Shown: in pieces, positions 268 to 20,949 of the stretch
Numbering within the stretch: position 1 is the stretch's first letter
How the letters are laid out: every line of letters begins with the position of its first letter
DNA from: a virus
Strand: one strand, 5' to 3'
Virus record (IMG/VR): IMGVR_UViG_3300027901_000907
Coordinates: 1 to 20,949 of that record
Length of the DNA stretch: 20,949 bases
Position numbers and translations under genes: made by a program
The notes under the pieces: model-generated
Told to the model about the DNA's origin: nothing
Databases searched by the model: none
What the model saw: the letters and a program-made list of their open reading frames with translations, nothing else

Positions 268-1161
268 TTAATCTCCCTTCACAATTATTTTACCGTCCCA
301 TGCATCTAGCTCGGGCGGAAAATCTCTATAATCATCGGTCTTATATCTTGTCATAGCGTTTATCGATCTAGAACTAACAATTATTTCTCTCAAATTTGCA
401 AGCCTTTCATCATAACTGTTGCCCGGCAAAAATGAACCCGGTCTGTTTTTGCCATAAAAACCTATATTCCTAACTCTTGTAACCTCGGGTTGTATAGTAG
501 TAAATCCATCGTGTATGAAAGCAATATCTGTTAGCCTATTTATAAGTCCAGCTTGCTCATTATGCTCGCCGGGGCCATATTTCTTTTTATATTTAACAGG
601 ATAATAAGATTGATATTTCTTATCCAAGGCGGTAACATAAAGATGTCGAGTCCTGGCATTTTTATAAAATTTCTCGGTCGCACAAGGTTTAATATATTTG
701 TCATAAAATCTTTTTGTAATAGTTGCGCCCGCAGCATCATAAAAATGATTCTGATGAACAACATCTACATCACCATTTAAAACATAAGTTACCCCTAAAT
801 AAACAGAAGTTTTATCCAAGCCCATATTCAAAAGCACATCAATATATTGAAAAAATGTTTTATGAACTATTATATCGTCAGCTTGGAAAATAACATAATC
901 TTCTGTCATTTCCATGGCTACCTTCATACCTTTTAGGATATTTTGTGATAGCCCTATTCTTTCTGGTCTAATTATTATTTCTTTTTCCAAAGGAAAATTT
1001 TCAACATGTTCAATAACTTTTGGTGGTGCTCCACCCTCTACAATAAACAAAACCTTCAATCCTTCTATTGGATGATATTCATAAGCCGTCATAAAATCTT
1101 CCATGACAACTTGTAACATTTCTGGTCTATTCCATACGGCAAAAAGTACTATGTTACTCAT
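268..1161 (-). CDS. Glycosyltransferase, GT-A fold (GT2-like)
   Basis: A 297-residue protein with no visible signal peptide or membrane segment. The N-terminus (NIVLFAVWNRPEMLQVVMEDF) resembles the first strand and helix of GT-A transferases that begin with a 'fxRpe' segment. An acidic stretch, ADD at residues 94-96 (VIFQADDIIVH), follows a helix rich in Met and Glu and matches the DxD-like position that binds metal and the nucleotide sugar. The second half is less familiar and probably sets acceptor specificity. The ATG at 1161 overlaps the stop of the acyltransferase gene by 8 bases and has an AAAGGAG site about 10 bases upstream, which suggests translational coupling. The protein should act in the cytoplasm and move a sugar from a nucleotide donor; donor and acceptor cannot be read from the sequence. 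I am confident of the fold and not of the exact family. Confidence 0.72.
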   Translation of the reverse strand: MSNIVLFAVWNRPEMLQVVMEDFMTAYEYHPIEGLKVLFIVEGGAPPKVIEHVENFPLEKEIIIRPERIGLSQNILKGMKVAMEMTEDYVIFQADDIIVHKTFFQYIDVLLNMGLDKTSVYLGVTYVLNGDVDVVHQNHFYDAAGATITKRFYDKYIKPCATEKFYKNARTRHLYVTALDKKYQSYYPVKYKKKYGPGEHNEQAGLINRLTDIAFIHDGFTTIQPEVTRVRNIGFYGKNRPGSFLPGNSYDERLANLREIIVSSRSINAMTRYKTDDYRDFPPELDAWDGKIIVKGD

Positions 1162-1597
1162 TTTTCTTCAACTCCTTTGCTGGATTTCCTACAACAGTTA
1201 CCCCAGGCGGCACATCTTTAGTTACAACAGCCCCAGCACCAATTGACGCCCTCTTTCCAATTGTGACACCACAAATTATAGTTGCATTTGCTCCTATAGC
1301 CGCTCCTTTTTTCACATGAGTTCGTAAAAACTTACCATAATCTTTGGCATTGGGGTATTTATCGTTTGTAAAACAGACATGAGGGCCTATAAAAACATCG
1401 TCGTCAATTTCTACGCCCTCAGGAATAAAGACAAATGCCTGGATTTTGCATCGACTTCCTATTCTAGGGCTCCTAATTTCTACAAATGTTCCTATATTGC
1501 AATCTTTGCCTATATATCCTCCACCATATATATTGCTTGTCTCTGGATGCCAAATTTTAGTGCCATCACCTATAACAACATCATTATCTATAAGCAT
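1154..1597 (-). CDS. Hexapeptide-repeat acyltransferase (WbpD/WlbB-like N-acetyltransferase)
   Basis: This 147-residue protein is built almost entirely from hexapeptide repeats ([LIV]-G-x-x-x-x), for example YIGKDCNIGTFVEI, VFIGPHVCFTND, AAIGANATIICGVTIGKRASIGAGAVVTKDVPPG and the ending VVGNPAKELKK. These repeats fold into a left-handed beta-helix, which trimerises and binds acetyl-CoA between subunits. The pattern with a FTNDKYP loop and a GNPAK C-terminus is that of sugar N-acetyltransferases such as WbpD/WlbB and FdtC, which acetylate the amino group of a UDP- or dTDP-amino sugar. The gene overlaps the oxidoreductase gene before it by about 10 bases and the glycosyltransferase after it by 8. 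In known bacterial clusters a WbpD-type enzyme travels with a WbpB-type Gfo/Idh/MocA dehydrogenase, which is exactly the neighbour here. The exact substrate is inferred. Confidence 0.85.
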   Translation of the reverse strand: MLIDNDVVIGDGTKIWHPETSNIYGGGYIGKDCNIGTFVEIRSPRIGSRCKIQAFVFIPEGVEIDDDVFIGPHVCFTNDKYPNAKDYGKFLRTHVKKGAAIGANATIICGVTIGKRASIGAGAVVTKDVPPGVTVVGNPAKELKKNE

Positions 1598-2586
1598 ACT
1601 GCTTCTCCTTTTTCCAACGAATCCAGCGCTGCAACTAGCCCTTTAACAACTTCTAAACCATTTTGTCCGTCTGTCAGTGGTTGCTTTCTGTTCTCCACAC
1701 AGTCTATAAAGTGGCCACATTCCAGATATAGTGGTTCCCATATCTCTGTAGATGGAGACCAAATATCACCATGGCGGTAGCTTAATAAATATTCGCCATA
1801 TCCCTCATTGGCATTACTATCAAGATCTACACCCTTGTCATAGATTTTTATTTTTTCTTCGGCAAGCATGTCATAAACCAACATCTTTTTAGTGCCTACA
1901 ATAGTAGTTGTTCTGCTTTTCTTTGGGTCAAGCCAACTCAAATGTAGATGACATACTGCTCCACAACTGTATTCAAAAACAACAAAAGCAACTTCTACTA
2001 TCTTTGGATTTATAAAACTATATCCTTTTGCGAAAACTCTTTTTAGTTCTCCTTTAATCAGATAATTAAAAATGGAAATATCATGTGGTGCTAAGTCAGC
2101 AACAACATTTGCTTTCTGAAATTTGCCCAAATTAAGTCTAGAGGCATGAATATATTGTATATCTCCTAACACACCGTCATCTATAATTTCTTTAATTTTC
2201 CGGACCTCTGGCGTATAAAGAAAGGTGTGTCCTACCATGACAACACGATTATTTTTTGCCGCTAATGCTATTATGTCCTCCGCTTCTTTCACACAAAGTG
2301 TCATGGGTTTTTCAATAAAAACATCTTTATTGGCTTCCAGGGTTGTCATGGCCAATTCATAATGTGTGTTTGGTGGTGTAGCAATAACAACACCATCCAC
2401 ATCATCTCTGCCCAAACACTTTTCCCAATCTATATCAAAAAATATACACCGATAAGCTGAATCGAGGGCATATTTTTTTAGGTTGTCTTCATTTAAATCA
2501 AAAGCCGCGGCCAGAACTTTATATTTGTTGAAGTTTCTTAGTAAATTTGGACCCCAATAACCCAATCCGACTAAAGCTAGCTTCAT
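1588..2586 (-). CDS. Gfo/Idh/MocA family NAD(P)-dependent oxidoreductase (WbpB/WlbA-like)
   Basis: A 332-residue protein of normal family length. The N-terminal Rossmann domain starts with GLGYWG (residues 7-12). The family signature EKP is at 92-94, after the strand ending VVIATPPNTH. The predicted catalytic histidine lies in DLAPHDI (H168), the form seen in sugar 3-dehydrogenases of the WbpB/WlbA group, which oxidise C3 of UDP-N-acetylglucosamine-type uronic acids before transamination and acetylation. The C-terminal half is the usual open beta-sheet domain. The start ATG at 2586 overlaps the previous gene's TGA as ATGA, with AAGGAG upstream, and its TAG stop lies inside the following acyltransferase gene. 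A PLP aminotransferase, needed between these two steps in the known pathway, is not in this window and may lie further left. Confidence 0.88.
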   Translation of the reverse strand: MKLALVGLGYWGPNLLRNFNKYKVLAAAFDLNEDNLKKYALDSAYRCIFFDIDWEKCLGRDDVDGVVIATPPNTHYELAMTTLEANKDVFIEKPMTLCVKEAEDIIALAAKNNRVVMVGHTFLYTPEVRKIKEIIDDGVLGDIQYIHASRLNLGKFQKANVVADLAPHDISIFNYLIKGELKRVFAKGYSFINPKIVEVAFVVFEYSCGAVCHLHLSWLDPKKSRTTTIVGTKKMLVYDMLAEEKIKIYDKGVDLDSNANEGYGEYLLSYRHGDIWSPSTEIWEPLYLECGHFIDCVENRKQPLTDGQNGLEVVKGLVAALDSLEKGEAVCL

Positions 2587-3701
2587 AGCTCTTCAATCTC
2601 CTTAATCATTTTTTGTGCAACTTTTTCCCACGTAAGATTTTCTGCAATATATTTCTTTAGGGCAATACCTTTTTGTTTGGCTTCTTCTCTATTTTCATAA
2701 ACATATTTCATCAATTGCGCAGCATCGTGTACATCGGGCGCTGCCCAAAGCTGATCACCTTTATACCATGGAGCGCCTAGCATGCCAAATACTGGCTGCA
2801 GTGAATAATCCACAAGATAGCTGTTATCTGGCTTGGCATACTCAAGTGCGCCACCAAATCCAGTAATAATAATAGGAGTTGCACAAGCGCCAGCCGTAAA
2901 ACCACTAAGACCAAAACCCTCACCTCTATCCAAGGACACAAAACAATCACCCCTAGCATGTAGGCCCAGGATTTCATTTCTTGAAAGCTGGTCAAGAATC
3001 ATATATACCTTAGCGTGTTTATTAGGCATAGGTGTAACTTCCTTTAGACGCTTCATCGTCTGTAGAATAAGATCTTTATCTTTATCAAAATAGTTCGTTC
3101 GATATGTTTTAAGAACCAATGCCACATTCTCATCGTTTTGAAAAGCGTGCCAATATGCCCTAACAAGGGCGGCAGGATTCTTTCTTTCCATGAACTGAAA
3201 TATGCCATAGAATACAAAAGTATCATCGTTTACCCCTTTTACATGATATGGCTTGATTCCATCAAACTCTTCCATTTCTATACCATGTGGTACAGAACCC
3301 ACAGGGACAGTTACACCGCTTTCTTTATAGACATCCACATTCCAATCACAACATGTTAAAATTTTATCTGCACCATTCATCAGCCCAACCCAGTCAGAAG
3401 GCAGCTTTGTTGTTTCCCATACCACATAACCAATATTTTTCTTGCCTTCTTCTCTGCTCTGAGCAAAATGATGGGGGATAGTCTGAGTAATGGTAACGTT
3501 GTAGTCTATCTCCTTATTAACTAAACTAGCCAAAACCTTACCATATTTCTCATGAACTGGTTTTTCCGGCTCAAACGATACTGGTGCAGCAGTTATAGGT
3601 ACACCGAGTTTATGTAAGGCTAATACATACCCCCTAGAGGCCTCGCCATATCCTGACCCATCCAATAGCGGTGATATATATTTAATTCCCTTTATTTTCA
3701 T
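2583..3701 (-). CDS. Glycosyltransferase, GT-B fold (GT4-like)
   Basis: This 372-residue protein has the two-domain layout of GT-B transferases. An N-terminal segment contains a glycine-rich loop (LLDGSGYGEASRGY), where acceptor and donor domains meet. A C-terminal Rossmann domain carries VFYGIFQFMERKNPAALVRAY and the donor-binding loop RGEGFGLSGFTAGACATPIIITGFGG. GT4 enzymes usually have an E-x7-E motif here. The first Glu is present (EGFGL), but the second position is Thr, whereas the other GT-B gene in this cluster keeps both. The substitution may mark an unusual donor or altered chemistry. The ATG at 3701 lies inside the 3' end of the thymidylate-synthase-like gene with a GAGGAGAT ribosome binding site, and the stop overlaps the next start as ATGA. 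There is no transmembrane segment, so it should act in the cytoplasm. Acceptor unknown. Confidence 0.83.
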   Translation of the reverse strand: MKIKGIKYISPLLDGSGYGEASRGYVLALHKLGVPITAAPVSFEPEKPVHEKYGKVLASLVNKEIDYNVTITQTIPHHFAQSREEGKKNIGYVVWETTKLPSDWVGLMNGADKILTCCDWNVDVYKESGVTVPVGSVPHGIEMEEFDGIKPYHVKGVNDDTFVFYGIFQFMERKNPAALVRAYWHAFQNDENVALVLKTYRTNYFDKDKDLILQTMKRLKEVTPMPNKHAKVYMILDQLSRNEILGLHARGDCFVSLDRGEGFGLSGFTAGACATPIIITGFGGALEYAKPDNSYLVDYSLQPVFGMLGAPWYKGDQLWAAPDVHDAAQLMKYVYENREEAKQKGIALKKYIAENLTWEKVAQKMIKEIEEL

Positions 3702-4440
3702 CCTTATCTCCTCTCAAAGTTCTTAGCTGAGCGAGCTCCCACGCGTAGTCATATAAATGCAAACCCTTGCTCGCTGCAATGATCTCCCCATCTTCTACGC
3801 CTATCTCGCTGGCCATGTATTCTTTTAATAATTGAATGCCTCCAAGGTTAGCTGGCAATCCATTCCACAGATCCCATGACCTAAAATACACCATAAAATG
3901 TAACTTTCCGTCCTTAATGCGCGTGTCTATATGACGAAGACAAGGCGGGTCTCCTAATAAAATATCCGATGGTGTAGAAATAGACATTGCTGCCTGATTC
4001 GTGCCGTAACCTTGTCTTTTATACATACGGATAACTTCATCTATTTGATTTACTGAACTCCTATTTACGTCCTCTGGAATAAATGAATTAGAACGGTCTT
4101 CTGGATGCATCCAATAATATTCCCAGCCCGCGAGACGCTCTCCATAAGTGTAATCCTCGTTCGGTTGTTTCATATTGGTCATAAGATACGGCAAATATTC
4201 TTCAATATATCCATCAGCAACTGGATTAGGAATTCCCAATGACGCTGGAATATCAGGAATCAAAGGACGTATGCCTGGATATTTAATCTGGATAGTAATA
4301 TAATCAAATTCCAAGCGTTGTTGCCCTTCGTAGCTACCACGATCGATAGTATATTTATACCCATGGTCCAGGATTGCATAGACACACTGAAACCATGCAT
4401 CTGGCAAATCTCGTGCTACTATGCTGATAGGATTAAGCAT
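3682..4440 (-). CDS. Thymidylate synthase / pyrimidine hydroxymethylase superfamily protein
   Basis: A 252-residue protein that keeps the key residues of the ThyA superfamily in order. These are YTYGER at 97-102 (compare the family's YG-x-Q/R-W), the nucleophile in DPPCLRH (C167), the phosphate-binding FRSWD (R187, S188, D190), GLPANLGG with N198, and LHLY (H228, Y230). In this family Asn at the N198 position favours dUMP and Asp favours dCMP, so the visible residue predicts a uracil substrate. The reaction would be methylation to dTMP or hydroxymethylation to 5-hydroxymethyl-dUMP, using methylene-tetrahydrofolate. The length is close to compact archaeal ThyA and dCMP hydroxymethylases. The sequence is clearly divergent from standard ThyA. 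It lies directly between two glycosyltransferase genes (stop of one, G, then its ATG; AGAGGAG upstream), so a role in making a base that is then glycosylated is a reasonable inference. Plain dTMP synthesis is the alternative. Confidence 0.78.
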   Translation of the reverse strand: MLNPISIVARDLPDAWFQCVYAILDHGYKYTIDRGSYEGQQRLEFDYITIQIKYPGIRPLIPDIPASLGIPNPVADGYIEEYLPYLMTNMKQPNEDYTYGERLAGWEYYWMHPEDRSNSFIPEDVNRSSVNQIDEVIRMYKRQGYGTNQAAMSISTPSDILLGDPPCLRHIDTRIKDGKLHFMVYFRSWDLWNGLPANLGGIQLLKEYMASEIGVEDGEIIAASKGLHLYDYAWELAQLRTLRGDKDENKGN

Positions 4441-4441
4441 C

Positions 4442-5821
4442 TTAAATCTCCTCTGTTTCTATAACCTCACCAAAATCTGGAAGATCATCTTCCGTTACCA
4501 TTTCTTCTTTCAGCTCTTTTTGAAGTGCTTCATGGGCCTCATCAAAAATATTCACCCACTGGGGAACAATAGATCTTTGCCAATCCATTTTAGTTGTTAC
4601 CCAACGATAGGCATTTTCAGCTTTTTGTTTTGCTTCATCGCGATTATTATATACATGTAACATGGTTTTGACCATGTCATCTACGTCGACTAAAGGTCTT
4701 ACCACCTCGTTATCGTGAGGCAAAACAGTGAATAAGCTTGGGTTGCTTCCGCTCTTTACCAAGTATCCTCTGTCCTCTGTAACGAATTCAGTCAATGCTG
4801 TATTGTTAGGCATTATAATAGGTGTTTTAGCAGCCATGGCTTCAATCCAACTAAGCCCAAATCCCTCGCCAATTGCAGTACTGACAACACAATCACTGAT
4901 ATTATAAATCATATTGACGATTTCACGCGGATAACCCTGGTTTGGACCAAAATTCTCAGGGAAGATAACATCTTCTCTGATGCTTAAACCATATCCTCTA
5001 CAAACCTCAGGAAGATCCCACCCTTGATCCTTTTTGGCCATATGTAAATATAATAAAGCATCTGGAACCTGCTTTTTAACTTCAACAAAAGCACTAATGG
5101 TTCTTGGAATATCTTTTCTTTGTTGGTTTCTATTCAAATTAGTGAATATAAACTTTTCTGACTGCGGGCCAAAATATTGTTTGCGAAATTCTACAACCTC
5201 GTCTTTAGGAAGTGGATGATATTCTAATGTATTAACGCCATGAGGAATGACCCTGAAATCCGGAGCTTCTGGAAAAGCTTTCAGTGCCTCGTTTTTGCCA
5301 AATTCACAATAAGCAACTGGGTAATCAATAACACTTACATTTTTAATCCACTTTTCTTTTGGTACCCCATCAATAGGAAAATAACAAATAGATTTAAATT
5401 TTCTACCCATTTGGTGCAAATAAGGAATTAATTCCGGTAAAAAATCCAAAATAAAAGTATCTTGCAAAAAGAAAAGAAGATCATATTCCATTTTAGGAAT
5501 CATACTACAAATTTTCTTTCGGCCATAAGGATCATGTTCTGCATTAGTACCGGTTGGCCATATCCTATATGGAAAAGGATGTGGATTCCCCCAATAATTG
5601 ATACCCAATATATCTATTTGATATTTACCACTACGTGCCAACCCTTCAAAAATATTTCTAGAAACCGTACCAAAACCAGTGGCGCATGAAGGCGTATCAC
5701 AGTAAGCAACTACCTTAATTTTTTTCGGGGGTTGTGCTTGACGTAATATAGGTGCCGCTGAAACCGGTTTAGTAATTGGTTTATTCGTTCTTGTCTTTTT
5801 CCTTTTCTTACTTTTTGCCAT
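4442..5821 (-). CDS. Glycosyltransferase, GT-B fold (GT4 family)
   Basis: I place the start at the ATG at 5821 (MAKSKKRKK), giving 459 residues. A GGAGGAGGAT ribosome binding site lies just upstream, inside the end of the nuclease gene. A longer in-frame reading to 5899 would lie wholly within the nuclease gene and has no comparable site. The N-terminus is a short Lys/Arg-rich tail, then KKIKVVAYCDTPSCATGFGTVSRNIFEGLARSG, the GT-B glycine loop. The C-terminal domain has FIFTNLNRNQQRKDIPRTISAF and the complete E-x7-E donor motif in IGEGFGLSWIEAMAAKTPIIM. The basic tail could help contact nucleic acid or an acidic surface, which is speculation. The gene follows the nuclease gene with a 14-base overlap and is followed after one base by the thymidylate-synthase-like gene, so the sugar block appears co-transcribed with the replication block. 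Confidence 0.87.
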   Translation of the reverse strand: MAKSKKRKKTRTNKPITKPVSAAPILRQAQPPKKIKVVAYCDTPSCATGFGTVSRNIFEGLARSGKYQIDILGINYWGNPHPFPYRIWPTGTNAEHDPYGRKKICSMIPKMEYDLLFFLQDTFILDFLPELIPYLHQMGRKFKSICYFPIDGVPKEKWIKNVSVIDYPVAYCEFGKNEALKAFPEAPDFRVIPHGVNTLEYHPLPKDEVVEFRKQYFGPQSEKFIFTNLNRNQQRKDIPRTISAFVEVKKQVPDALLYLHMAKKDQGWDLPEVCRGYGLSIREDVIFPENFGPNQGYPREIVNMIYNISDCVVSTAIGEGFGLSWIEAMAAKTPIIMPNNTALTEFVTEDRGYLVKSGSNPSLFTVLPHDNEVVRPLVDVDDMVKTMLHVYNNRDEAKQKAENAYRWVTTKMDWQRSIVPQWVNIFDEAHEALQKELKEEMVTEDDLPDFGEVIETEEI

Positions 5822-6986
5822 TCCCTTTATCCTCCTCCTCATTAAACTTTTTAGTGGCCAAAAAAGGCGATGTAAAAGTAGATTGAGAGCCCTCAACAAT
5901 GCGAGCCTTGATGCGTGGTTTATCGGTTATATATTTTTCAACGGCTCTTTTATTAAGCTTAACCATTTTGAGGAAATCTCTTTCTGGAACAAGCTCATAA
6001 ACTGTTTTTATATCAAAGGCTGTTCTTGAATTTTGTCTCACATATACTTCTTCGCTTTCATTATGTATTCTAGAACCCTGTCGCTTCATTCGTTCCATTA
6101 TAAGCATAGCAAGCTCTCTTTCCCGGCCCTCGACTATTTTCTTAGTATCACGCATCTTCATCCACTCATTCAGCAAATCCGCATCTCTATATTTTTCGGC
6201 TGCCTCAAAACTATAATTTGTTTTTTCATATGCCTTTTTATATGTTCTACAGTAGTCCTTATAGTCACACCACGGACAAAAAATGTTAAGACTAGGTTTT
6301 GCGTCTGTCTTTTTAAGTTTAGTCATAGCATTATGCAGTGCCGTTAAATAATCAGAAAACTCTGCTCTTTCTTCTGGCGTCCTATATGTAGTCATTGGCT
6401 CACCTTTTAATAAGTCCAAACATAATATGATTCTTTCATATTTGGGCCACTTAATACTGGCTACTAAATCATATATAGATAGCTGGATATCGTTTTTTAG
6501 CTGATCACCTGTTGGCATTGTATTAGATGTTTTATAATCTATAACCATTAAACTATATTCATCCAACTCCACAACTTTATCCATAGCACCTATCAATAGA
6601 ACACCATCCTTGGTCATGACTTGGTTGTCATCAGACATACCAAACCTGTCTTCCAAGCTTACTATTTTTTCCCCTATCATAAAATCATCTAGCCTTCTAT
6701 TCACTAATTCAAGGCCTTCTTTATGAATCTCTAAATCATCAACCCCTTCATTCACGGATATATCATTATAAAAAGCATTAAGCATCTTTCGATCTTCTTC
6801 AGTAAATTTGCCATGCTCTATCCATATCCTTCCAGCCTTCTCTAGTACTCTATGACACACAAGACCGAGTTTGAAGGCAGGATTTGTCATTTTAGGGATA
6901 TTATCATGATAGTTGAGCCAATATTTCAGCTTGCATTCCAAAAACATACTTATTCGTGTTGCGCTCAACTTAATTTCTCTGCCCAT
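5808..6986 (-). CDS. PD-(D/E)XK exonuclease with predicted Fe-S cluster (Cas4/AddB/RecB-like)
   Basis: A 392-residue nuclease. The PD-(D/E)XK core is complete: H45 (GLVCHRVLEKAG), D136 (LIGAMDKV), D150-x-K152 (LMVIDYKTS) and Q168 (QLSIYDL). Four cysteines sit where Cas4 and AddB bind a 4Fe-4S cluster: C18 near the N-terminus (FLECKLKYWL) and C237, C240 and C246 after the core (FCPWCDYKDYC). Such enzymes degrade or resect DNA ends and feed recombination. A C-terminal extension of about 140 residues, charged and helical, continues past the cluster and has no motif I recognise; it may bind a partner. There is no helicase motif, so any motor must be a separate protein. The gene follows a small zinc-ribbon gene and a RuvC-like gene. 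The products may process replication intermediates together with the encoded RecA and SSB. Confidence 0.88.
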   Translation of the reverse strand: MGREIKLSATRISMFLECKLKYWLNYHDNIPKMTNPAFKLGLVCHRVLEKAGRIWIEHGKFTEEDRKMLNAFYNDISVNEGVDDLEIHKEGLELVNRRLDDFMIGEKIVSLEDRFGMSDDNQVMTKDGVLLIGAMDKVVELDEYSLMVIDYKTSNTMPTGDQLKNDIQLSIYDLVASIKWPKYERIILCLDLLKGEPMTTYRTPEERAEFSDYLTALHNAMTKLKKTDAKPSLNIFCPWCDYKDYCRTYKKAYEKTNYSFEAAEKYRDADLLNEWMKMRDTKKIVEGRERELAMLIMERMKRQGSRIHNESEEVYVRQNSRTAFDIKTVYELVPERDFLKMVKLNKRAVEKYITDKPRIKARIVEGSQSTFTSPFLATKKFNEEEDKGNGKK

Positions 6987-11999: not shown

Positions 12000-12761
12000 T
12001 TACCATAAACCTAAAATCTTAGCGTTTTTCTTACAATGTTTTTCAACTAGTTCCTTGTCACCTTCTAACATACATTCTCTTGAATATCTTATTTCAGACG
12101 GCGTTATTTCTCTTGTGGGGTTCCCTGGGTCCCAACCACCAAATATTCTATCAATAGTTTCTTTTGGTTTCAAAACGGCATCAGAATACCGTACTAAAAT
12201 TATATCATCTAAATGTTTTATAATTATATCTGTCCAAAACTTCCAAATTAAAGCAACAGATTTTTGTATTTCTTCGAGATTTATTTTATAATAATCTTGT
12301 AGCTTATGTAAGCCCGCGCCGATACTCATTCCCCCTTGAAATCTTCTAAAAGACCCAACAGTATCATATGGATGTCTTACTATCACCACAATTCTAGCCT
12401 CAGGCATGCTTTCCACTATGCCAGGTAACCTATTTAAAAACATACGGGGATTTTTCATACCAAAAATAAAATTTTCATTGTCAAATTCATGTATACCTGA
12501 GGGCTTAACCCATTTTTCTGTCCTATAATCAGTGACTAATGATCCGTCTGCTGCAAACTTATTTGGAACTTGTTCTTTATTTAATACTTTTTCATACCAG
12601 TAATCAAATAATTCTTTAACTCCTTGATTCATTGGCTTGTGCATCACATCAAGCATCGGTGGCTCGGACAACATAACGACGTTTGAGAAATTATGAAGAA
12701 TGGAACATAAATATGTTGTTCCACTTTTTGGAATACCTGTTAATACGATCTGCTTTCTCAT
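12000..12761 (-). CDS. Sulfotransferase family protein (PAPS-dependent)
   Basis: A 253-residue protein with both signatures of PAPS-using sulfotransferases. The 5'-phosphosulfate loop is at the start (LTGIPKSGTTYL, residues 7-18). The 3'-phosphate-binding strand and helix lie in RIVVIVRHPYDTVGSFRRF (R129 and S137). A KNPRMF segment before it and a C-terminal helix also fit. These enzymes move a sulfuryl group from 3'-phosphoadenosine-5'-phosphosulfate to a hydroxyl or amine of a sugar, lipid or protein. No signal peptide or membrane anchor is present, so it is cytoplasmic. The ATG follows the previous stop directly (TAAATG). It lies among replication genes, away from the sugar cassette, which makes its target unclear. 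Sulfation of a phage glycan, of host surface material, or of a modified base are all possible. The host would have to supply PAPS. Confidence 0.86.
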   Translation of the reverse strand: MRKQIVLTGIPKSGTTYLCSILHNFSNVVMLSEPPMLDVMHKPMNQGVKELFDYWYEKVLNKEQVPNKFAADGSLVTDYRTEKWVKPSGIHEFDNENFIFGMKNPRMFLNRLPGIVESMPEARIVVIVRHPYDTVGSFRRFQGGMSIGAGLHKLQDYYKINLEEIQKSVALIWKFWTDIIIKHLDDIILVRYSDAVLKPKETIDRIFGGWDPGNPTREITPSEIRYSRECMLEGDKELVEKHCKKNAKILGLW

Positions 12762-14913: not shown

Positions 14914-15780
14914 TTATTTAGTGCAACCGCCACAAGAGCCGCCGCCTGCTTCTTCTCGGCTCGTATCAACTGCCATCGTCTTCTCATCCCTATCTCTCTT
15001 TTCCCTTCTTGACTGAGCACAGCTGACAGAAGTATGTGCATCATCATACAGGAATTGAAAGACCTGATCCTCTAGAAAGTTATAAATAGAGGTAATAGGA
15101 ATGAAATAGGATAGATGCGTAATAGCATCCGCAGAAAAACCACCCATATTAACAGCAATTCTACTAGGAATGCCGATGAACTCATAGGTATCAGCTAGAT
15201 ACAGAGACCCACCAGAATTACCATAAATGGTAGGAGCAGTAGAAAGCCAGTAAGGATAGTTATCGATAATGTCCGTAAAACCGGTCAAATTACCCTGGGT
15301 TGCAAGCGGTGGATGACCCATACCACAACCAACAGCGTAGACCTTCATGAACATTCTCAGTCTCTTCATATGTTCGCCCCTTGGAAATACGGTGGCAACG
15401 TGCTCAAACTTCTTAGATGACTTAACTCTAAGAAGTGCCAAATCCATGTCCTTATCATAACACATAATTTCTGCCTTATGTGCGATATGGCCACTTTCCC
15501 AAGAACCATATTCAAAATCAAATAGCTCTACTGTACAGTCGGCCAAAACGTCAGTCTTAACCTCTCTCTTAAGTAGAGTACTCCACTTTTTCTCTACCCT
15601 GATATTGTCATTAATGACGTGGCAATTAGTCAGGACATAAGTTTCATATCCTTCATAATCGCTTCCTTCCGGAACTGGTCTACTATAAATAATAGTACCA
15701 GAGCCGCCGGCCTTGTCAGTTCTAACTCTCACAGTAGGATAAAGCAGTTTTTCATGCTTTTCATTTAGTCGTTCGTCCAT
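14914..15780 (-). CDS. Trypsin-like (HtrA-type fold) serine protease with Cys-rich tail
   Basis: A 288-residue protein with a complete chymotrypsin-fold triad: His in VLTNCHVIND (H54), Asp in KDMDLALLRVK (D113) and Ser in IYGNSGGSLYL (S189). The GSGTII strand before the His and the GIPSR strand after the Ser also fit the family. No signal peptide, transmembrane segment or PDZ domain is present, so it should work in the cytoplasm or in the virion, unlike most HtrA proteins. The C-terminal 35 residues are charged and end in GGGSCGGCTK, with two closely spaced cysteines of unknown use. The gene lies between the unknown 201-residue gene and recA, not beside head genes, which argues against a simple prohead protease. 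Possible roles include cleaving a host or defence protein. The target cannot be read from the sequence. Confidence 0.86.
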   Translation of the reverse strand: MDERLNEKHEKLLYPTVRVRTDKAGGSGTIIYSRPVPEGSDYEGYETYVLTNCHVINDNIRVEKKWSTLLKREVKTDVLADCTVELFDFEYGSWESGHIAHKAEIMCYDKDMDLALLRVKSSKKFEHVATVFPRGEHMKRLRMFMKVYAVGCGMGHPPLATQGNLTGFTDIIDNYPYWLSTAPTIYGNSGGSLYLADTYEFIGIPSRIAVNMGGFSADAITHLSYFIPITSIYNFLEDQVFQFLYDDAHTSVSCAQSRREKRDRDEKTMAVDTSREEAGGGSCGGCTK

Positions 15781-15785
15781 AAATC

Positions 15786-16391
15786 TTAGTCTCCTTTCAA
15801 ATTTTTTAAAATCTCATCCAAATCCTCGAAGCCACCTGGCTCGGCGTCGTACTTTTTGTCTAAAGAAGCAATGAGAGCCTCCCTCCTTTCTTCATCTTTA
15901 TTCATTATCTTCTTGTTCATGATTTGAATTGCTTTTTCTGTTATCCAACCGCAATTCTTTTGTCCCAAAACATTAAATGTTAGGGGTATTTTGAAATTAA
16001 ATTCGGCCTCGTGCTCAAATATCGTAGCGATAATCTCAGCACATTCATTCATTGCAGCTTTTCTACACATATTACTTGCTTCTTGTCTTGCCGTAACAAA
16101 ATACTTTGCCAAAGCTCGATCTCTCGATAGATTTCTATAGTTATTAATAAGTTCTGGATGTTTCAAATCCGAATATGCATAAAATAAATGGATAAGATCA
16201 TCCAGCTTCTTAATATCAAATCTAGACAAAGGCTTTACTATTTTATAGCCTTTATATTTTAAAAATTCAACACAAGCATCCTCCAACAATTCAAAAGGAG
16301 GATTCTCGCTTCCAAAAAGCGTCCCCTGTTGGGTCTCCAACCACCCTTCATGTAACATATCCAGAATCTTTTCAAAATCCTTAATGGACAT
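15786..16391 (-). CDS. Hypothetical protein next to the sliding clamp
   Basis: A 201-residue protein that I do not recognise. It is mostly helical: an N-terminal segment with FELLEDACVEFLKYKGYKIV, a basic middle (INNYRNLSRDRALAKYFVTARQEASNMCRKAAMNECAEIIATIFEHEAEF) and an acidic C-terminal end (GGFEDLDEILKNLKGD). Cysteines are scattered and do not form a metal motif. The ATG overlaps the clamp gene's stop by one base (TAATG) with GGAG upstream, so it is the first partner translated with the clamp. A clamp-binding or DNA-binding accessory role is possible but only by position. I see no polymerase, nuclease or ATPase motif. Confidence 0.7.
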   Translation of the reverse strand: MSIKDFEKILDMLHEGWLETQQGTLFGSENPPFELLEDACVEFLKYKGYKIVKPLSRFDIKKLDDLIHLFYAYSDLKHPELINNYRNLSRDRALAKYFVTARQEASNMCRKAAMNECAEIIATIFEHEAEFNFKIPLTFNVLGQKNCGWITEKAIQIMNKKIMNKDEERREALIASLDKKYDAEPGGFEDLDEILKNLKGD

Positions 16392-17521
16392 TAACGTCTC
16401 CTTATTGGGGTAATTAGTGCTTTTTGATCTTCAAAGTTGCCAGAGTCGAATATTAAAACACCCTTCTCATCAGAGAATTTTATAAGAATCTGGTCGTCGT
16501 TTATGGCATCAATGGTATGTAACAGGAAAACACCGTTGATATCAATAACAAAAGAGCCATCATAATCTATACCAAAATCACAGTTATATGATACCTCACC
16601 ATTATAAAACCGTATCTTTTTGTTTTTAACTTCAAAGGTTAGTCTATTATTATCCTCTGCGTCAAGGATGTCAGCAAAGGGTGTTAAGACGGCCATAAGA
16701 GCGTCTTTGTTTGCTTTTATAACGTGGGAATAGGTCTGCAACACAGGTTTATAATTCGGATATTCGTGGCCAACTACAAGACGGCCTTGAAAAACCACGT
16801 TCTCGAACTTTGCTTTTATGCTTCTGCCATCAATTTCAAAAAAGATTTGCGTCTCTTCCCCCACAGCTCGACGTAAACCCATGATGAAGTCGTATTTCAT
16901 TAAATAATTTTTTTCTTTCAATTCATTTGTATTTTTAACCGTATATTCTGATAAAATACGGCCATTGGTACCACAGAAATATATATCATCTTTTCCAAAG
17001 GACAAACTCATTCCTTGGATAAATGCCCTATTTTCCGTAGGATCCATTGCATACACCACTTTTCCAATAGCTTTTTTGAACATGTTGGAGTTTAAAATGA
17101 ACTGTGTGTTGCCGAATGGGGCTGGTTTTTGAAGGCGACCGTCATGAAAACAGTCTGCCCTAAGCTCTCCTGTCGATGTTTCTCCATTTTCATGCACATT
17201 TTCTACAGTAATATCCACATGTTCTTCACATACAAACACAACTTCCTTGGTTCCATAAGAGCCGTTCCATGGTTGAAGCGCATTAATAAATGATTTTACT
17301 TTTCCATATAGAATTGTGGCAGAACCAGGTGTGGTTACTTTGACTTTGTCTGATAGGATGGATATTGCCGTGGAATTGTTGTTTGAGACAAACAAAACCG
17401 TGTTATCGTCGTTGGCCTCAATTAAAACTCGACCGCTGAAATCTATAACATTGACTTTAGCGGTCACACCTAACAAACTCACAATTTTCTGTAATTCCTT
17501 TGTTTCAATACTAAAATTCAT
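16391..17521 (-). CDS. dnaN: DNA polymerase III beta subunit-like sliding clamp
   Basis: At 376 residues this matches the bacterial three-domain beta clamp (about 365-380). It opens with MNFSIETKELQKIVSLLGVTAKVN. Domain repeats are visible as FILNSNMFKKAIGKVVYAMDPTENRAFIQGMSLSF and FFEIDGRSIKAKFENVVFQGRLVVGHEYPNYKPVL, the latter matching the bacterial 'R.ieG.fPdY..v.P' region. It ends in QKALITPIRRR, comparable with the usual 'y.v.PmR' C-terminus. It would encircle DNA as a dimer and tether the phage polymerase, which lies outside the window, as does any clamp loader. This is the first gene after the promoter region, with an AAGGA site nine bases upstream, so it heads the replication operon. 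The fold call is firm; the sequence is divergent. Confidence 0.86.
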   Translation of the reverse strand: MNFSIETKELQKIVSLLGVTAKVNVIDFSGRVLIEANDDNTVLFVSNNNSTAISILSDKVKVTTPGSATILYGKVKSFINALQPWNGSYGTKEVVFVCEEHVDITVENVHENGETSTGELRADCFHDGRLQKPAPFGNTQFILNSNMFKKAIGKVVYAMDPTENRAFIQGMSLSFGKDDIYFCGTNGRILSEYTVKNTNELKEKNYLMKYDFIMGLRRAVGEETQIFFEIDGRSIKAKFENVVFQGRLVVGHEYPNYKPVLQTYSHVIKANKDALMAVLTPFADILDAEDNNRLTFEVKNKKIRFYNGEVSYNCDFGIDYDGSFVIDINGVFLLHTIDAINDDQILIKFSDEKGVLIFDSGNFEDQKALITPIRRR

Positions 17522-17716: not shown

Positions 17717-20134
17717 TTAAATAAATTCAACTTTATCATCGAAACCGAGAACAAATGTCTTTTCTTGTGGTGTGATAGTAGCCGAAAGGTCGTCGTTGGT
17801 AGGCGTAAACCACCTGATTCTAACGGGTAGATCGGCAGTATGGTATATTTTAGGAATGACATTCAAATATGCACCCAAATTTCCATAATTATAAGAAGTT
17901 ACATAATCAATAGCAAAGCGGATGGCCTCGTCCAAGGTATTAAAATCGGTCAAGTCATATAGATTTTTAACCCTATGAAGCTTTCTTCTGATGTTTAAGG
18001 CCATGCCTTCCGGAATATAGGAGCTTATGTCTAGCACCCAACGGTCTAATCGGTTTGTTTTATAGACAGAACTTCCGGCGCCGACATAAAAATATTCTGG
18101 AACCATGGATTTAAAATACATTTCAACGACTTCATACCAATTTACTTGGCGCGCGTGGTTCAAATCATAAACAATTTCTCGGCTTTTGGTATTATCAAAA
18201 CTATACTCTTCTAACCAAGTTGCCGTGATAGAGGCCGGCATGTCGCTGTGTCTATATTCACCAACAATATAGCCGCCTAAATATGCTTGTTGCTTAAATA
18301 TTCGTAGGCTAATAGGGATTTTATCTTCTATTTGATAACCACTTCCAATATTAATTGTTATGGGCAGCTTATCTTTGAACACATATGAATCTGTATAGCC
18401 AATTTTAGCTCCCAAATCAGCATAATAAGTCGGAATTTTATAACCTGTAATTGTAGCAACAAGATTTGCCAGATATCGGCATCTTATTGAGGCCGAAAGA
18501 TCTAAATATCCGGAACTTCTGCAAATAAAGTTTATAACGGCTGATAAATCTGAGTGTTCCATAGTGGCAACAGATATTATACCTGTCATGTAAATTGTTT
18601 TTGGATAAATAAAAGCCGGCAAATTCCCAATACCACCAGCAGCGGTTATAGTAGCTGGTAAGTTGGCCGGAGCATGGATGGCTATATAAGCAGCTAAATC
18701 GCTTTGCTGGGCTAATATAGAAGCCCCATATATCAAACCTTGCAAATTTTTATAATAAGGTAAAGTCCAGCCGTCAGCTATAATTGTAGCTGGTAAATCA
18801 CCAGGTAAATGACCCCCCATATGACCACGTAGATCATAAGGCCCATAGCGACCGATAATGCTGGCACCCAAATCGCTTTCTTGCCAACCATGAATTAAAC
18901 CATTCAAATCAGCTGGTTGTATACAATACAAATAACCTGGTAAATCTTCCAAATAGGTGGCCCTAATTATACCTTGTAACTCTTCATAGGTGAATCCGTC
19001 TATATAGGCCCCTAAATCAGAGGTGGCCTCCCTAACCCATCCTTTTATAAGCGCCCGCAAATTTCTTGGAAAAGAGGTTCCTATATAAGCACCCAAATTA
19101 CTGGAATCAAACCAACCTATAGTAGCCCCCAAATCTCTATATTCCCAACCATGTAAATTAGCAGGCAAATCTTCTTGTGGCCATACGTTCAGATAGGCCG
19201 GCAAATCGACTGGTGGGATACCATAAACACTGGCTGGCAAATCTTTATATGTAAGAGCATTTATAAGAGCTAACAAATCTTCATATACCATTCCGCTAAT
19301 AATACCTTGTAAATCTCCGTACCCTTCGCCCCAACCTCGGATAATACCTCTAAGTCCAAATTCACCTTGTTTTAAAATAGCGTTAATAGTAGCTGGCAAA
19401 TCCTTGTGTTCATGCGGTCTTACACCAATAATGGCGCGCAAGTCAGCAGAATAAATATGTTTTATATAGGCAGGCAAAAAATCAACACATCTGTATCTAG
19501 GTCTACCAACAATAAACTTTGGCTGGCCTGCTTCATACCCCACCAAATATTTTCTTGGCGCAATAAGATGACAATAAACACCTGCTATACTAGTCATCAA
19601 ATTATTAGAGGTGGTGTAAGCGGGTTTAATTATGCCTCCCAAATCCGCTTGCCCACTAAATATTTCTTTACCAGCAACTATAAACCCTCCTAAATCAGCA
19701 TAAGAGCTATACCACGCTTGAATGGCAGCTGGTAAATTTTCGGTAGATTGAACTCTAGATTTTATATATGCAGATAGAAAATCTACACATCTAAATTGTT
19801 GTCTAGCTTCAACAAATTTTGGAATTCCATCTTCATAGCCAATCAAATATTTTCTAGGCCCCAAAGCTTGGCAATATGCACCAATAATACTCGCAACTAA
19901 ATTCGCTGGATTATGACCCGACATAGATGCTCCAAAGTTTGCATATGCCGAATGCCATTTATATCCAGTAATATATGCACCAAGATTTCCATGCCCATAT
20001 AAACCAGCATTTCCTGCATTATAAAGCCTTTGTTCAGGACCATCCTTAAGGGCGAACCTCAACACCTGGGAACCAGAATATCCCGCTGGAAACATTCTTG
20101 GGTAACTTGAAGAAAATGGTCTTAAAATTGGCAT
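17717..20134 (-). CDS. Giant 12-residue-repeat protein, probable tail or surface fibre
   Basis: About 805 residues from the ATG at 20134 (MPILRPFSSSY), just after the LamG gene's stop; an in-frame GTG at 20149 would add five. Residues about 50-640 are tandem copies, some 40 in all, of a motif near (D/N)-L-(P/G/R/Q)-(A/G)-x-(I/L)-x-(G/A)-(W/x)-x-x-x, for example DLPAYLNVWPQE, DLPANLHGWEYR, DLGATIGWFDSS. Many copies are exactly 12 residues and others carry loops of a few residues. Two copies carry a long insert with YC, PRKYL and RCVDFL words. A non-repeat domain (YDLNHARQVNWYEVVEMYF to AIRFAIDYVTS) interrupts near the C-terminus, then three last repeats follow. No signal peptide. I know no family with this repeat. 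Alternating hydrophobic residues suggest a beta-rich fibre; with the upstream LamG-type protein, a receptor-binding or tail structure is likely but not proven. Confidence 0.8.
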   Translation of the reverse strand: MPILRPFSSSYPRMFPAGYSGSQVLRFALKDGPEQRLYNAGNAGLYGHGNLGAYITGYKWHSAYANFGASMSGHNPANLVASIIGAYCQALGPRKYLIGYEDGIPKFVEARQQFRCVDFLSAYIKSRVQSTENLPAAIQAWYSSYADLGGFIVAGKEIFSGQADLGGIIKPAYTTSNNLMTSIAGVYCHLIAPRKYLVGYEAGQPKFIVGRPRYRCVDFLPAYIKHIYSADLRAIIGVRPHEHKDLPATINAILKQGEFGLRGIIRGWGEGYGDLQGIISGMVYEDLLALINALTYKDLPASVYGIPPVDLPAYLNVWPQEDLPANLHGWEYRDLGATIGWFDSSNLGAYIGTSFPRNLRALIKGWVREATSDLGAYIDGFTYEELQGIIRATYLEDLPGYLYCIQPADLNGLIHGWQESDLGASIIGRYGPYDLRGHMGGHLPGDLPATIIADGWTLPYYKNLQGLIYGASILAQQSDLAAYIAIHAPANLPATITAAGGIGNLPAFIYPKTIYMTGIISVATMEHSDLSAVINFICRSSGYLDLSASIRCRYLANLVATITGYKIPTYYADLGAKIGYTDSYVFKDKLPITINIGSGYQIEDKIPISLRIFKQQAYLGGYIVGEYRHSDMPASITATWLEEYSFDNTKSREIVYDLNHARQVNWYEVVEMYFKSMVPEYFYVGAGSSVYKTNRLDRWVLDISSYIPEGMALNIRRKLHRVKNLYDLTDFNTLDEAIRFAIDYVTSYNYGNLGAYLNVIPKIYHTADLPVRIRWFTPTNDDLSATITPQEKTFVLGFDDKVEFI
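19064..19315 (-). repeat. Seven perfectly phased 12-residue (36-bp) coding repeats
   Basis: Seven consecutive units of exactly 12 codons, beginning DLQGIISGMVYE and ending NLGAYIGTSFPR, with no insertion. The protein motif is conserved far better than the DNA, which shows mixed codons, so the array is old and held by selection rather than a recent slippage product. Four more exact units follow after one 15-residue unit. Confidence 0.85.
19460..19606 (-). repeat. Duplicated 49-residue insert module, copy 2
   Basis: The encoded segment NLMTSIAGVYCHLIAPRKYL... to RCVDFLPAYIK matches copy 1 at 30 of 49 residues by direct count and lies exactly 300 bp from it. Shared words are YC, PRKYL, GYE, PKF, RCVDFL and AYIK. 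This shows duplication of a 100-residue block inside the repeat protein. Confidence 0.85.
19760..19906 (-). repeat. Duplicated 49-residue insert module, copy 1
   Basis: The segment NLVASIIGAYCQALGPRKYL... to RCVDFLSAYIK is the partner of copy 2. Two cysteines are conserved in each copy (YC and RC), the only regularly placed cysteines in the protein. Confidence 0.85.
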
Positions 20135-20135
20135 A

Positions 20136-20949
20136 TTAACATGTCCCACTGGCCGGTGTCATAAAAACAGCACCAGCTATATCTTCATCTAATCTATAGT
20201 GTCCTTGTCTATAAAAAGTTACAATAAATTTTTCTTCGGGCGGGGCAGGAACTCCTATATTAAAAGTACCGTTAGTTTCAGATACGTCACTAACAACAAA
20301 TTCTCCATCCAAATCAGAAACTATAATATTACATGACTCCGTCATAGGTAATCCATTTTTATCATATACTATGCCTTGAATACACATTGGAGGATAGTTT
20401 TGTTCATTACCATATGTTATTAATTCATCCCAAATAGTATAGTGCTGTGCTTTTAAATAAGCATCCGATCGATCTATCTTAGATATCCTAATCTCGTCCA
20501 TAGAACCGTCCCAATAATCATAGGTCGGCAAATATCCTATATAGCGGCCACCATCATCATTTGCCATTGTATTACCAGTAGTGGCATTAGAACTACCCTG
20601 ATAAACACCATCCAAAAATCTTGTTAGATAACTATTATCCCATACAAAATCAATAGAATGCCACGTATCAACTAATAATCCAGTAACAGACTGAGATTTA
20701 ACAGAGGCATCATCCATTTCAAAATAGCAAGTAACATTAGATGTAGTATCGCTTCCCCATATCCAAGGTGTTCTTTGATTTGTAGATCCTCTTGCAAAAA
20801 TACCTCGATGTGCTGTAAACGGCATTTCGTCTGATTTTACGACACATGAAAAAGTAAAACGCGAGATACCATTTAATGATGTAAGACTATTCATATTTAA
20901 ATATTCTGAGCTTCCTGGATCAAAATTAAGTCCTCGGCCTGCTTTAGCT
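20136..20949 (-). CDS. LamG-like jelly-roll protein with C-terminal regulatory-like beta domain (5' end beyond window)
   Basis: The reading frame is open to the right edge: codons before the ATG at 20894 read GLNFDPGSSEYLN, the normal first strand of a LamG/concanavalin-like domain. That ATG is therefore internal and the gene begins outside the window. The domain continues with ISRFTFSCVVKSD, RGIFARG, WHSIDFVWDNSYLTRFLDGVYQGS, RYIGYLPTYDYWDGSMDEIRISKIDRSDAYLKAQHYT, the LamGL pattern that ends with a '(D/N)G.(D/I)e(v/i)ri....rs' strand. After a linker, MCIQGIVYDKNGLPMTESCNIIVSDLDGEFVVSDVSETNGTFNIGV looks like a carboxypeptidase-regulatory-like beta sandwich. Such proteins bind glycans or form virion appendages. 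The stop is three bases from the next gene's ATG, so the two genes are probably made together. Confidence 0.8.
   Translation of the reverse strand, partial: AKAGRGLNFDPGSSEYLNMNSLTSLNGISRFTFSCVVKSDEMPFTAHRGIFARGSTNQRTPWIWGSDTTSNVTCYFEMDDASVKSQSVTGLLVDTWHSIDFVWDNSYLTRFLDGVYQGSSNATTGNTMANDDGGRYIGYLPTYDYWDGSMDEIRISKIDRSDAYLKAQHYTIWDELITYGNEQNYPPMCIQGIVYDKNGLPMTESCNIIVSDLDGEFVVSDVSETNGTFNIGVPAPPEEKFIVTFYRQGHYRLDEDIAGAVFMTPASGTC

Follow-up and report, generated by a model that had tools for sequence, protein, structure and literature searches.

What is a phage protein that consists largely of short (D/N)LxAxIxG units, does its pattern belong to a described repeat family, and what might it do for the phage that encodes it? 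These questions are raised by a minus-strand gene in a 20,949-bp IMG/VR virus record, which was analysed here over its full length (the window). The product belongs to an unnamed conserved phage family. Our preferred reading, of moderate confidence, places it among the virion proteins, as a conserved part of the tail-tip/adhesin complex in a clade of long-tailed phages, where it would form a β-rich stalk or scaffold bearing exchangeable adhesins encoded upstream.

The repeat gene and its setting

The features concerned are, in the direction of the gene:

20136-20948, minus strand: upstream structural gene with a Laminin_G_3 domain and a CarboxypepD_reg-like end, truncated at the window edge
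17717-20134, minus strand: repeat protein ORF, 805 aa (from ORF and translation, ATG at 20134)
19760-19885, minus strand: Cys module copy 1, aa 84-125 (C-x27-C, consensus CxxLxPKKYxIGYexGxPkfi...fRCVDFL)
19460-19585, minus strand: Cys module copy 2, aa 184-225 (same C-x27-C form)
18749-19279, minus strand: core array of 14 units, aa 286-462 (spacing 12, with two exceptions: 15 after unit 7 and, once, 13)
17885-18223, minus strand: conserved non-repeat domain, aa 638-750 (from the alignment of homologues)
16391-17521, minus strand: sliding clamp, 3′ of the repeat gene (PHROG 947, E 6e-30)

The 805-residue product is laid out as an N-terminal region with the two Cys modules, the central 12-residue array, the C-terminal non-repeat domain, and three terminal units. 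Its ATG at 20134 overlaps the stop codon with which the LamG gene ends, and an in-frame GTG at 20149 offers a possible alternative start. The full-length version of that LamG gene, with a weak match to DUF2341, is found in locus L002, which also carries the repeat protein of the window.

Between the clamp block and RecA lies a gene for a trypsin-like serine protease (14914-15780, minus strand), which is 85% identical in L003, exceeding RecA (76%); no such ORF was seen in L005, L017, or L018. Elsewhere in the window (268-6000 and 12000-12761, minus strand), genes read by eye as glycosyltransferase-like, acyltransferase-like, and oxidoreductase-like are clustered, together with a sulfotransferase-like gene. 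This sugar-enzyme-like cluster, assigned by reading, suggests that the phage modifies surface sugars.

The 12-residue array and its flanking domains

The first-pass annotation had described the word (D/N)-L-x-(A/G)-x-(I/L) as recurring about every 12 residues, and the counts bear this out. The strict word [DN]L.[AG].[IL] is found 29 times in the protein, whereas 2000 shuffles averaged 0.25 and never exceeded 4; for a looser word the count is 37, compared with 1.9 in shuffles (maximum 8); and self-identity peaks at lag 12 (0.139 versus a background of ~0.065). Exact 12-residue phasing extends over eight unit starts (aa 274-358) and, after a 15-residue spacing, over five more (aa 373-421). This 15-residue spacing of the core comes after the KGWVREA unit, with the 13-residue spacing later on. 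The earlier figure of about 40 units was slightly generous: 35-40 are recognisable in the 805-aa protein, but only about one-third of the spacings are exactly 12, the others being 13-17, plus longer insertions. Similarly, the C-terminus had been called non-repeat, which is true of aa ~638-750, but three further units follow (at 752, 768, and 782).

Within the unit, D/N at position 1, L at 2, A/G at 4, and I/L at 6 are conserved; Gly or Ala is frequent at 8 and Trp or His at 9, and Tyr is common at 5. The protein shows a strand-like two-residue alternation. A superperiod of four units had a p of 0.006, uncorrected, on ten aligned proteins, but proteins taken singly yielded 2/4, 7, or no period, and owing to this disagreement no superperiod is claimed. 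No consistent higher-order period of units was found in the ten aligned proteins and single proteins, a three-unit period being unsupported.

Conserved Cys pairs, which may serve as a disulfide or metal site, lie at aa 88-116 and 188-216, each in a hairpin-like module. The window protein and L004 have two copies of the module, L003 and L020 have three, and six homologues have a single copy, in a shorter C-x18-C form, whereas the relatives in the window clade have 2-3 copies of the longer form; by eye, it is absent from L064. For the domain at aa 638-750, a low-confidence AlphaFold model predicts a two-helix end. A resemblance of the C-terminal domain to SpaS/FlhB-type helices in PDB was marginal (E 0.008 over 38 residues only) and is not claimed.

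A conserved phage family without a name

With the window protein as query, Pfam-A returned no family up to E 10, NCBIfam and PDB sequences returned nothing, and PHROGs gave three sub-threshold matches (best E 0.066), whose families have no assigned function. Of ten homologues, only one had a PHROGs match at the 0.01 cut-off, to phrog_15214 (E 0.00069), a family that also lacks an assigned function; Pfam gave just two sub-threshold names, and none of the ten had a PDB match to the array. The whole repeat protein was without a match in isolated phages and plasmids, two scans of prokaryote genomes gave no homologue, and literature searches on the repeat, on DUF2341 phage proteins, and on SP-15 brought up no explanation of it. 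The initial view that the pattern fits no named repeat family thus stands, Pfam, NCBIfam, and PDB having yielded no convincing match.

In IMG/VR, the family comprises 13 distinct members including the window protein (also L002), the others being those of L003, L004, L005, L009, L010, L016, L017, L018, L020, L057, L061, and L064. A pattern scan of IMG/VR for two DLPAxI units 12 apart gave eight loci, three of which (L058-L060) have no array, the others belonging to this clade. The repeat gene is single-copy in all six records searched; its match in L020 comes in pieces within one frame.

In all homologous loci, the repeat gene is the last or near-last of the structural block. Where the locus reaches far enough, it is followed on its 3′ side by the sliding clamp, a ~200-aa protein, RecA, a ~117-aa protein, and DnaB; a protease gene precedes RecA in the closest relatives of the window, and L057 has one extra structural-looking ORF between the repeat gene and the clamp. 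Adhesin-like genes with DUF2341, Laminin_G_3, F5_F8_type_C, and GH130-like domains usually lie 5′ of the repeat gene, and the gene directly upstream varies by locus: in L003, L005, and L020 it encodes a LamG protein, in L009 a protein of 115 aa, in L018 one of 533 aa, and elsewhere others. Four homologues start with a PP...F.F / GGY..P motif, which adjoining structural genes share in two lineages. Gene order and neighbours thus agree with the phage-appendage context proposed at first pass, the repeat gene ending a tail/adhesin gene cluster of a tailed phage.

Two related contigs of tailed phages, 115 and 119.5 kb long, were mapped, and terminase, portal, and major head protein are encoded on the contig of L018. 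Giant single frames run to 8,081 codons in G001 (L041-L043, 79535-103780) and 8,048 codons in G004 (L045-L046, 32474-56620). The 8,081-codon frame, on the 115-kb contig, contains a PhageMin_Tail domain (E 2e-25) and is therefore a tape-measure candidate. The same giant frame also includes a PT-TG (Pre-toxin TG) Pfam domain (L042 2001-8000, minus strand, E 3e-12). In the same genomes, another structural protein, encoded at L041 2749-4362 (minus strand) and by the G004 ORF 69298-69939, has just two LGASI units (SLGASIVGMPWSEKNLGASITP), next to a segment that looks sandwich-like.

Conservation and divergence

The core (aa 286-462) aligned in ten proteins with a gap fraction of 0.006, the 15- and 13-residue exceptions being retained; the more distant L057 keeps both of these spacings and has one extra of 14. 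Across homologues, orthologous units are 43-47% identical, against 27% for non-orthologous ones. This near gap-free core and the unit-by-unit orthology argue that the array is old and positionally fixed, with no recent expansion. The array therefore does not expand freely, each unit being conserved by position. Mean identity is 46% in the array and 42% in the C-terminal domain (gap fraction 0.006 or less), and variation in length falls in the N-terminus and the last 55 residues.

Between L005 and L018, the most distant pair compared, the repeat protein is 44% identical and the sliding clamp 42%. In a closer pair, the corresponding value for the repeat protein was 57%, versus 60, 76, and 67% for clamp, RecA, and helicase, and in another closer pair it was 65%, versus 84 and 80% for replication proteins. 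The divergence of the repeat protein lies inside the range shown by the neighbouring structural proteins.

Similar repeats in other phages and a plasmid

The pattern is not peculiar to this protein: similar repeats occur in a Paenibacillus plasmid protein and in Bacillus phage SP-15, with weaker evidence for a Brevibacillus phage. The query consisted of DLPASI-type repeats. The proteins reached were WP_190299717.1 of a Paenibacillus peoriae plasmid (DNRLRE domain-containing), gp64 of SP-15, and gp52 of Brevibacillus phage Jenst, in which [DN][LIM].[AGS].[ILVM] occurs 26, 33, and 30 times, respectively, versus 1.4, 2.7, and 2.1 in shuffles. A 24-residue profile of the phage family detected the Paenibacillus protein at E 3e-6 (10 stretches) and SP-15 at E 4e-4, the best shuffled decoy having E 0.3; Jenst, at E 4.3, scored no better than decoys, and only its motif count is above chance. 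In the reverse direction, a single-unit profile gave weak scores, with E 0.025 for the best family member and an overlap with decoys for others. Homology of the family with the Paenibacillus and SP-15 repeats is therefore likely rather than proven, and the 12-residue pattern is unnamed but not unique to this family.

These DLxSxI repeats (Paenibacillus, SP-15, and Jenst) use the same core word as the window family, in units of 12 and 14 residues, but have Ser instead of Ala/Gly at position 4 and a mixed 12/14/26 spacing. In the Paenibacillus and Jenst proteins they are fused to CBM96, and in the former also to LamG, unlike in the window family; both proteins contain CBM96 and NF033679 domains. 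CBM96 (PF24517) is absent from the window protein and nine homologues, and NF033679 from the window protein and L005. No C-terminal domain or synteny common to the window family and the DLxSxI proteins was seen.

The LamG and CBM96 protein with similar repeats is encoded on the Paenibacillus peoriae plasmid pPlas1 (L050 584-4378), where its gene adjoins one annotated as filamentous hemagglutinin, an integrase gene lying ~2 kb further. Matches to the Paenibacillus repeats also occur in Listeria phage LIS04 and Bacillus phage EZ-2018a. Two kinds of tblastn match were set aside. Aeromonas phage AVP3 has, at the end of a putative tail protein (L051, 189-4574), tandem 14-residue repeats of another kind, ADLTAPYGLQPGVI. 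Among the Klebsiella plasmid matches, the one opened (a Raoultella plasmid) sits on the strand opposite an annotated gene.

Possible folds of the array

In the arrangement that we propose, each 12-residue unit would form one short β-strand (positions 2-8, with L, A, and I facing one side) and a five-residue turn, and the stacked units would build a long β-rich stalk or scaffold. AlphaFold monomer models of the full protein and of the 14-unit core had a pLDDT of 30 each. At that confidence, the core model places strands over positions 2-8 in units 4-7 and over about 2-7 in units 8-9, a pattern that is compatible with one strand per unit but carries no weight alone. The earlier suggestion of β strands in each unit, perhaps as a solenoid or fibrous fold, is thus favoured in its first part by the two-residue alternation and these low-confidence marks, but the pLDDT 30 models do not bear out the fold. 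We infer both the β-strand structure and the oligomeric state of the protein.

A known fold may be hidden under the unusual sequence, either a pentapeptide-type or other β-solenoid or a trimeric β-helix like that of T4 gp5, all compatible with a stalk or fibre; we think this possible but rather unlikely. An interlocked trimeric β-structure would be consistent with one strand per unit and a small residue turned inward, and a monomer model of such a trimeric fibre would be likely to fail, as ours did. However, no Pfam repeat model matches, and no 5- or 8-residue period stands out. Pentapeptide repeats (PF00805) have a superficial A(D/N)L-x-(A/G) likeness to the unit start, but the period of the window array is 12 and not 5, and lag-5 self-identity is 0.046, below background. 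The C-terminal repeat of T4 gp5 is a trimeric, tail-associated phage β-helix with an 8-residue VxGxxxxx unit. The window array, known from sequence alone, shares with it short putative β-strand repeats in a tail-associated protein, whereas its own unit is a 12-residue LxAxI. Furthermore, a three-strand single-chain coil would require a three-unit superperiod, which is not seen, and a coil of 12 residues, seven of them in the strand, is probably too short for a single-chain solenoid turn. Alternatively, the (D/N)LxAxIxG units may constitute a β-fold absent from solved structures (e.g., a one-strand-per-unit trimeric stalk), common to the long-tailed clade and to adhesin-like proteins of Bacillota phages and plasmids, a proposal that we make only tentatively and consider doubtful.

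Stalk, receptor-binding fibre, or non-virion protein

The proposed stalk would end in the conserved non-repeat domain, with duplicable Cys-bearing hairpin modules near the N-terminus, and would serve as a constant body to which exchangeable glycan-binding proteins (DUF2341, LamG, F5/8C, propeller-like), with genes immediately upstream, are added. The structural protein with two such units in the same genomes also speaks for this reading. It is the clamp-like divergence of the repeat protein together with the swapped upstream gene that we read as a constant body with exchangeable adhesins. The DUF2341/LamG/F5-8C adhesin-like neighbours probably belong to the same virion substructure, although the repeat protein itself has none of those domains. 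The conserved array and the clamp-like divergence also favour a stalk or scaffold over a variable receptor-binding tip, so that, as far as the alignments tell, a constant stalk or scaffold is more likely than a variable host-recognising tip. Against the stalk reading, the repeat protein diverges faster by percent identity than clamp, RecA, and helicase in closer pairs.

The same protein might instead be a receptor-binding fibre or spike, whose array contacts host glycans through outward Tyr, Trp, and His and sets the host range. The frequent Tyr at unit position 5 and Trp/His at 9, the range of 1-3 N-terminal Cys modules, and the joining of similar repeats to carbohydrate-binding domains (CBM96 in Paenibacillus and the Brevibacillus phage, LamG in Paenibacillus) would suit such a role, and the variable module number could indicate recognition by the N-terminal part. 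Receptor-binding tips usually vary most, however, whereas here the array and C-terminal domain are least variable, with clamp-like divergence at larger distance. A hypervariable tip with a conserved anchor was not seen, since the variable parts, namely the N-terminus and the last 55 residues, lie outside the conserved array and C-domain. Hence, of the receptor-binding fibre suggested at first pass, the position in a tail/adhesin cluster is retained, but not the tip, the array and C-domain being the conserved, nearly gap-free parts; we regard the fibre or spike as improbable. Very unlikely, in our view, is a non-virion late protein, e.g., one that is secreted or works at the host surface, and whose gene is no more than a neighbour of the structural genes. 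The repeat gene does sit at the structural/replication boundary, and the putative virion membership of its homologues rests on gene context. But its start codon and the stop codon of the structural gene before it overlap, and in two lineages its N-terminal motif recurs in neighbouring structural proteins. Gene order and neighbours support a virion role, while position between structural and replication genes would by itself be no proof. As a stalk or scaffold, the protein would presumably be present in the virion and take part in attachment, and we would group it with the β-repeat proteins of phage tail appendages, as an unnamed family with a repeat type known elsewhere.

The phage clade that carries this family is little known and is missing from the isolated-phage collection searched. 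The family ties this clade to unnamed repeats of Bacillus and Paenibacillus elements, some of which have glycan-binding domains. Moreover, a fixed-register β-repeat, whose units can be traced one by one across distant phages, would be useful for structure determination and for the design of fibrous proteins.
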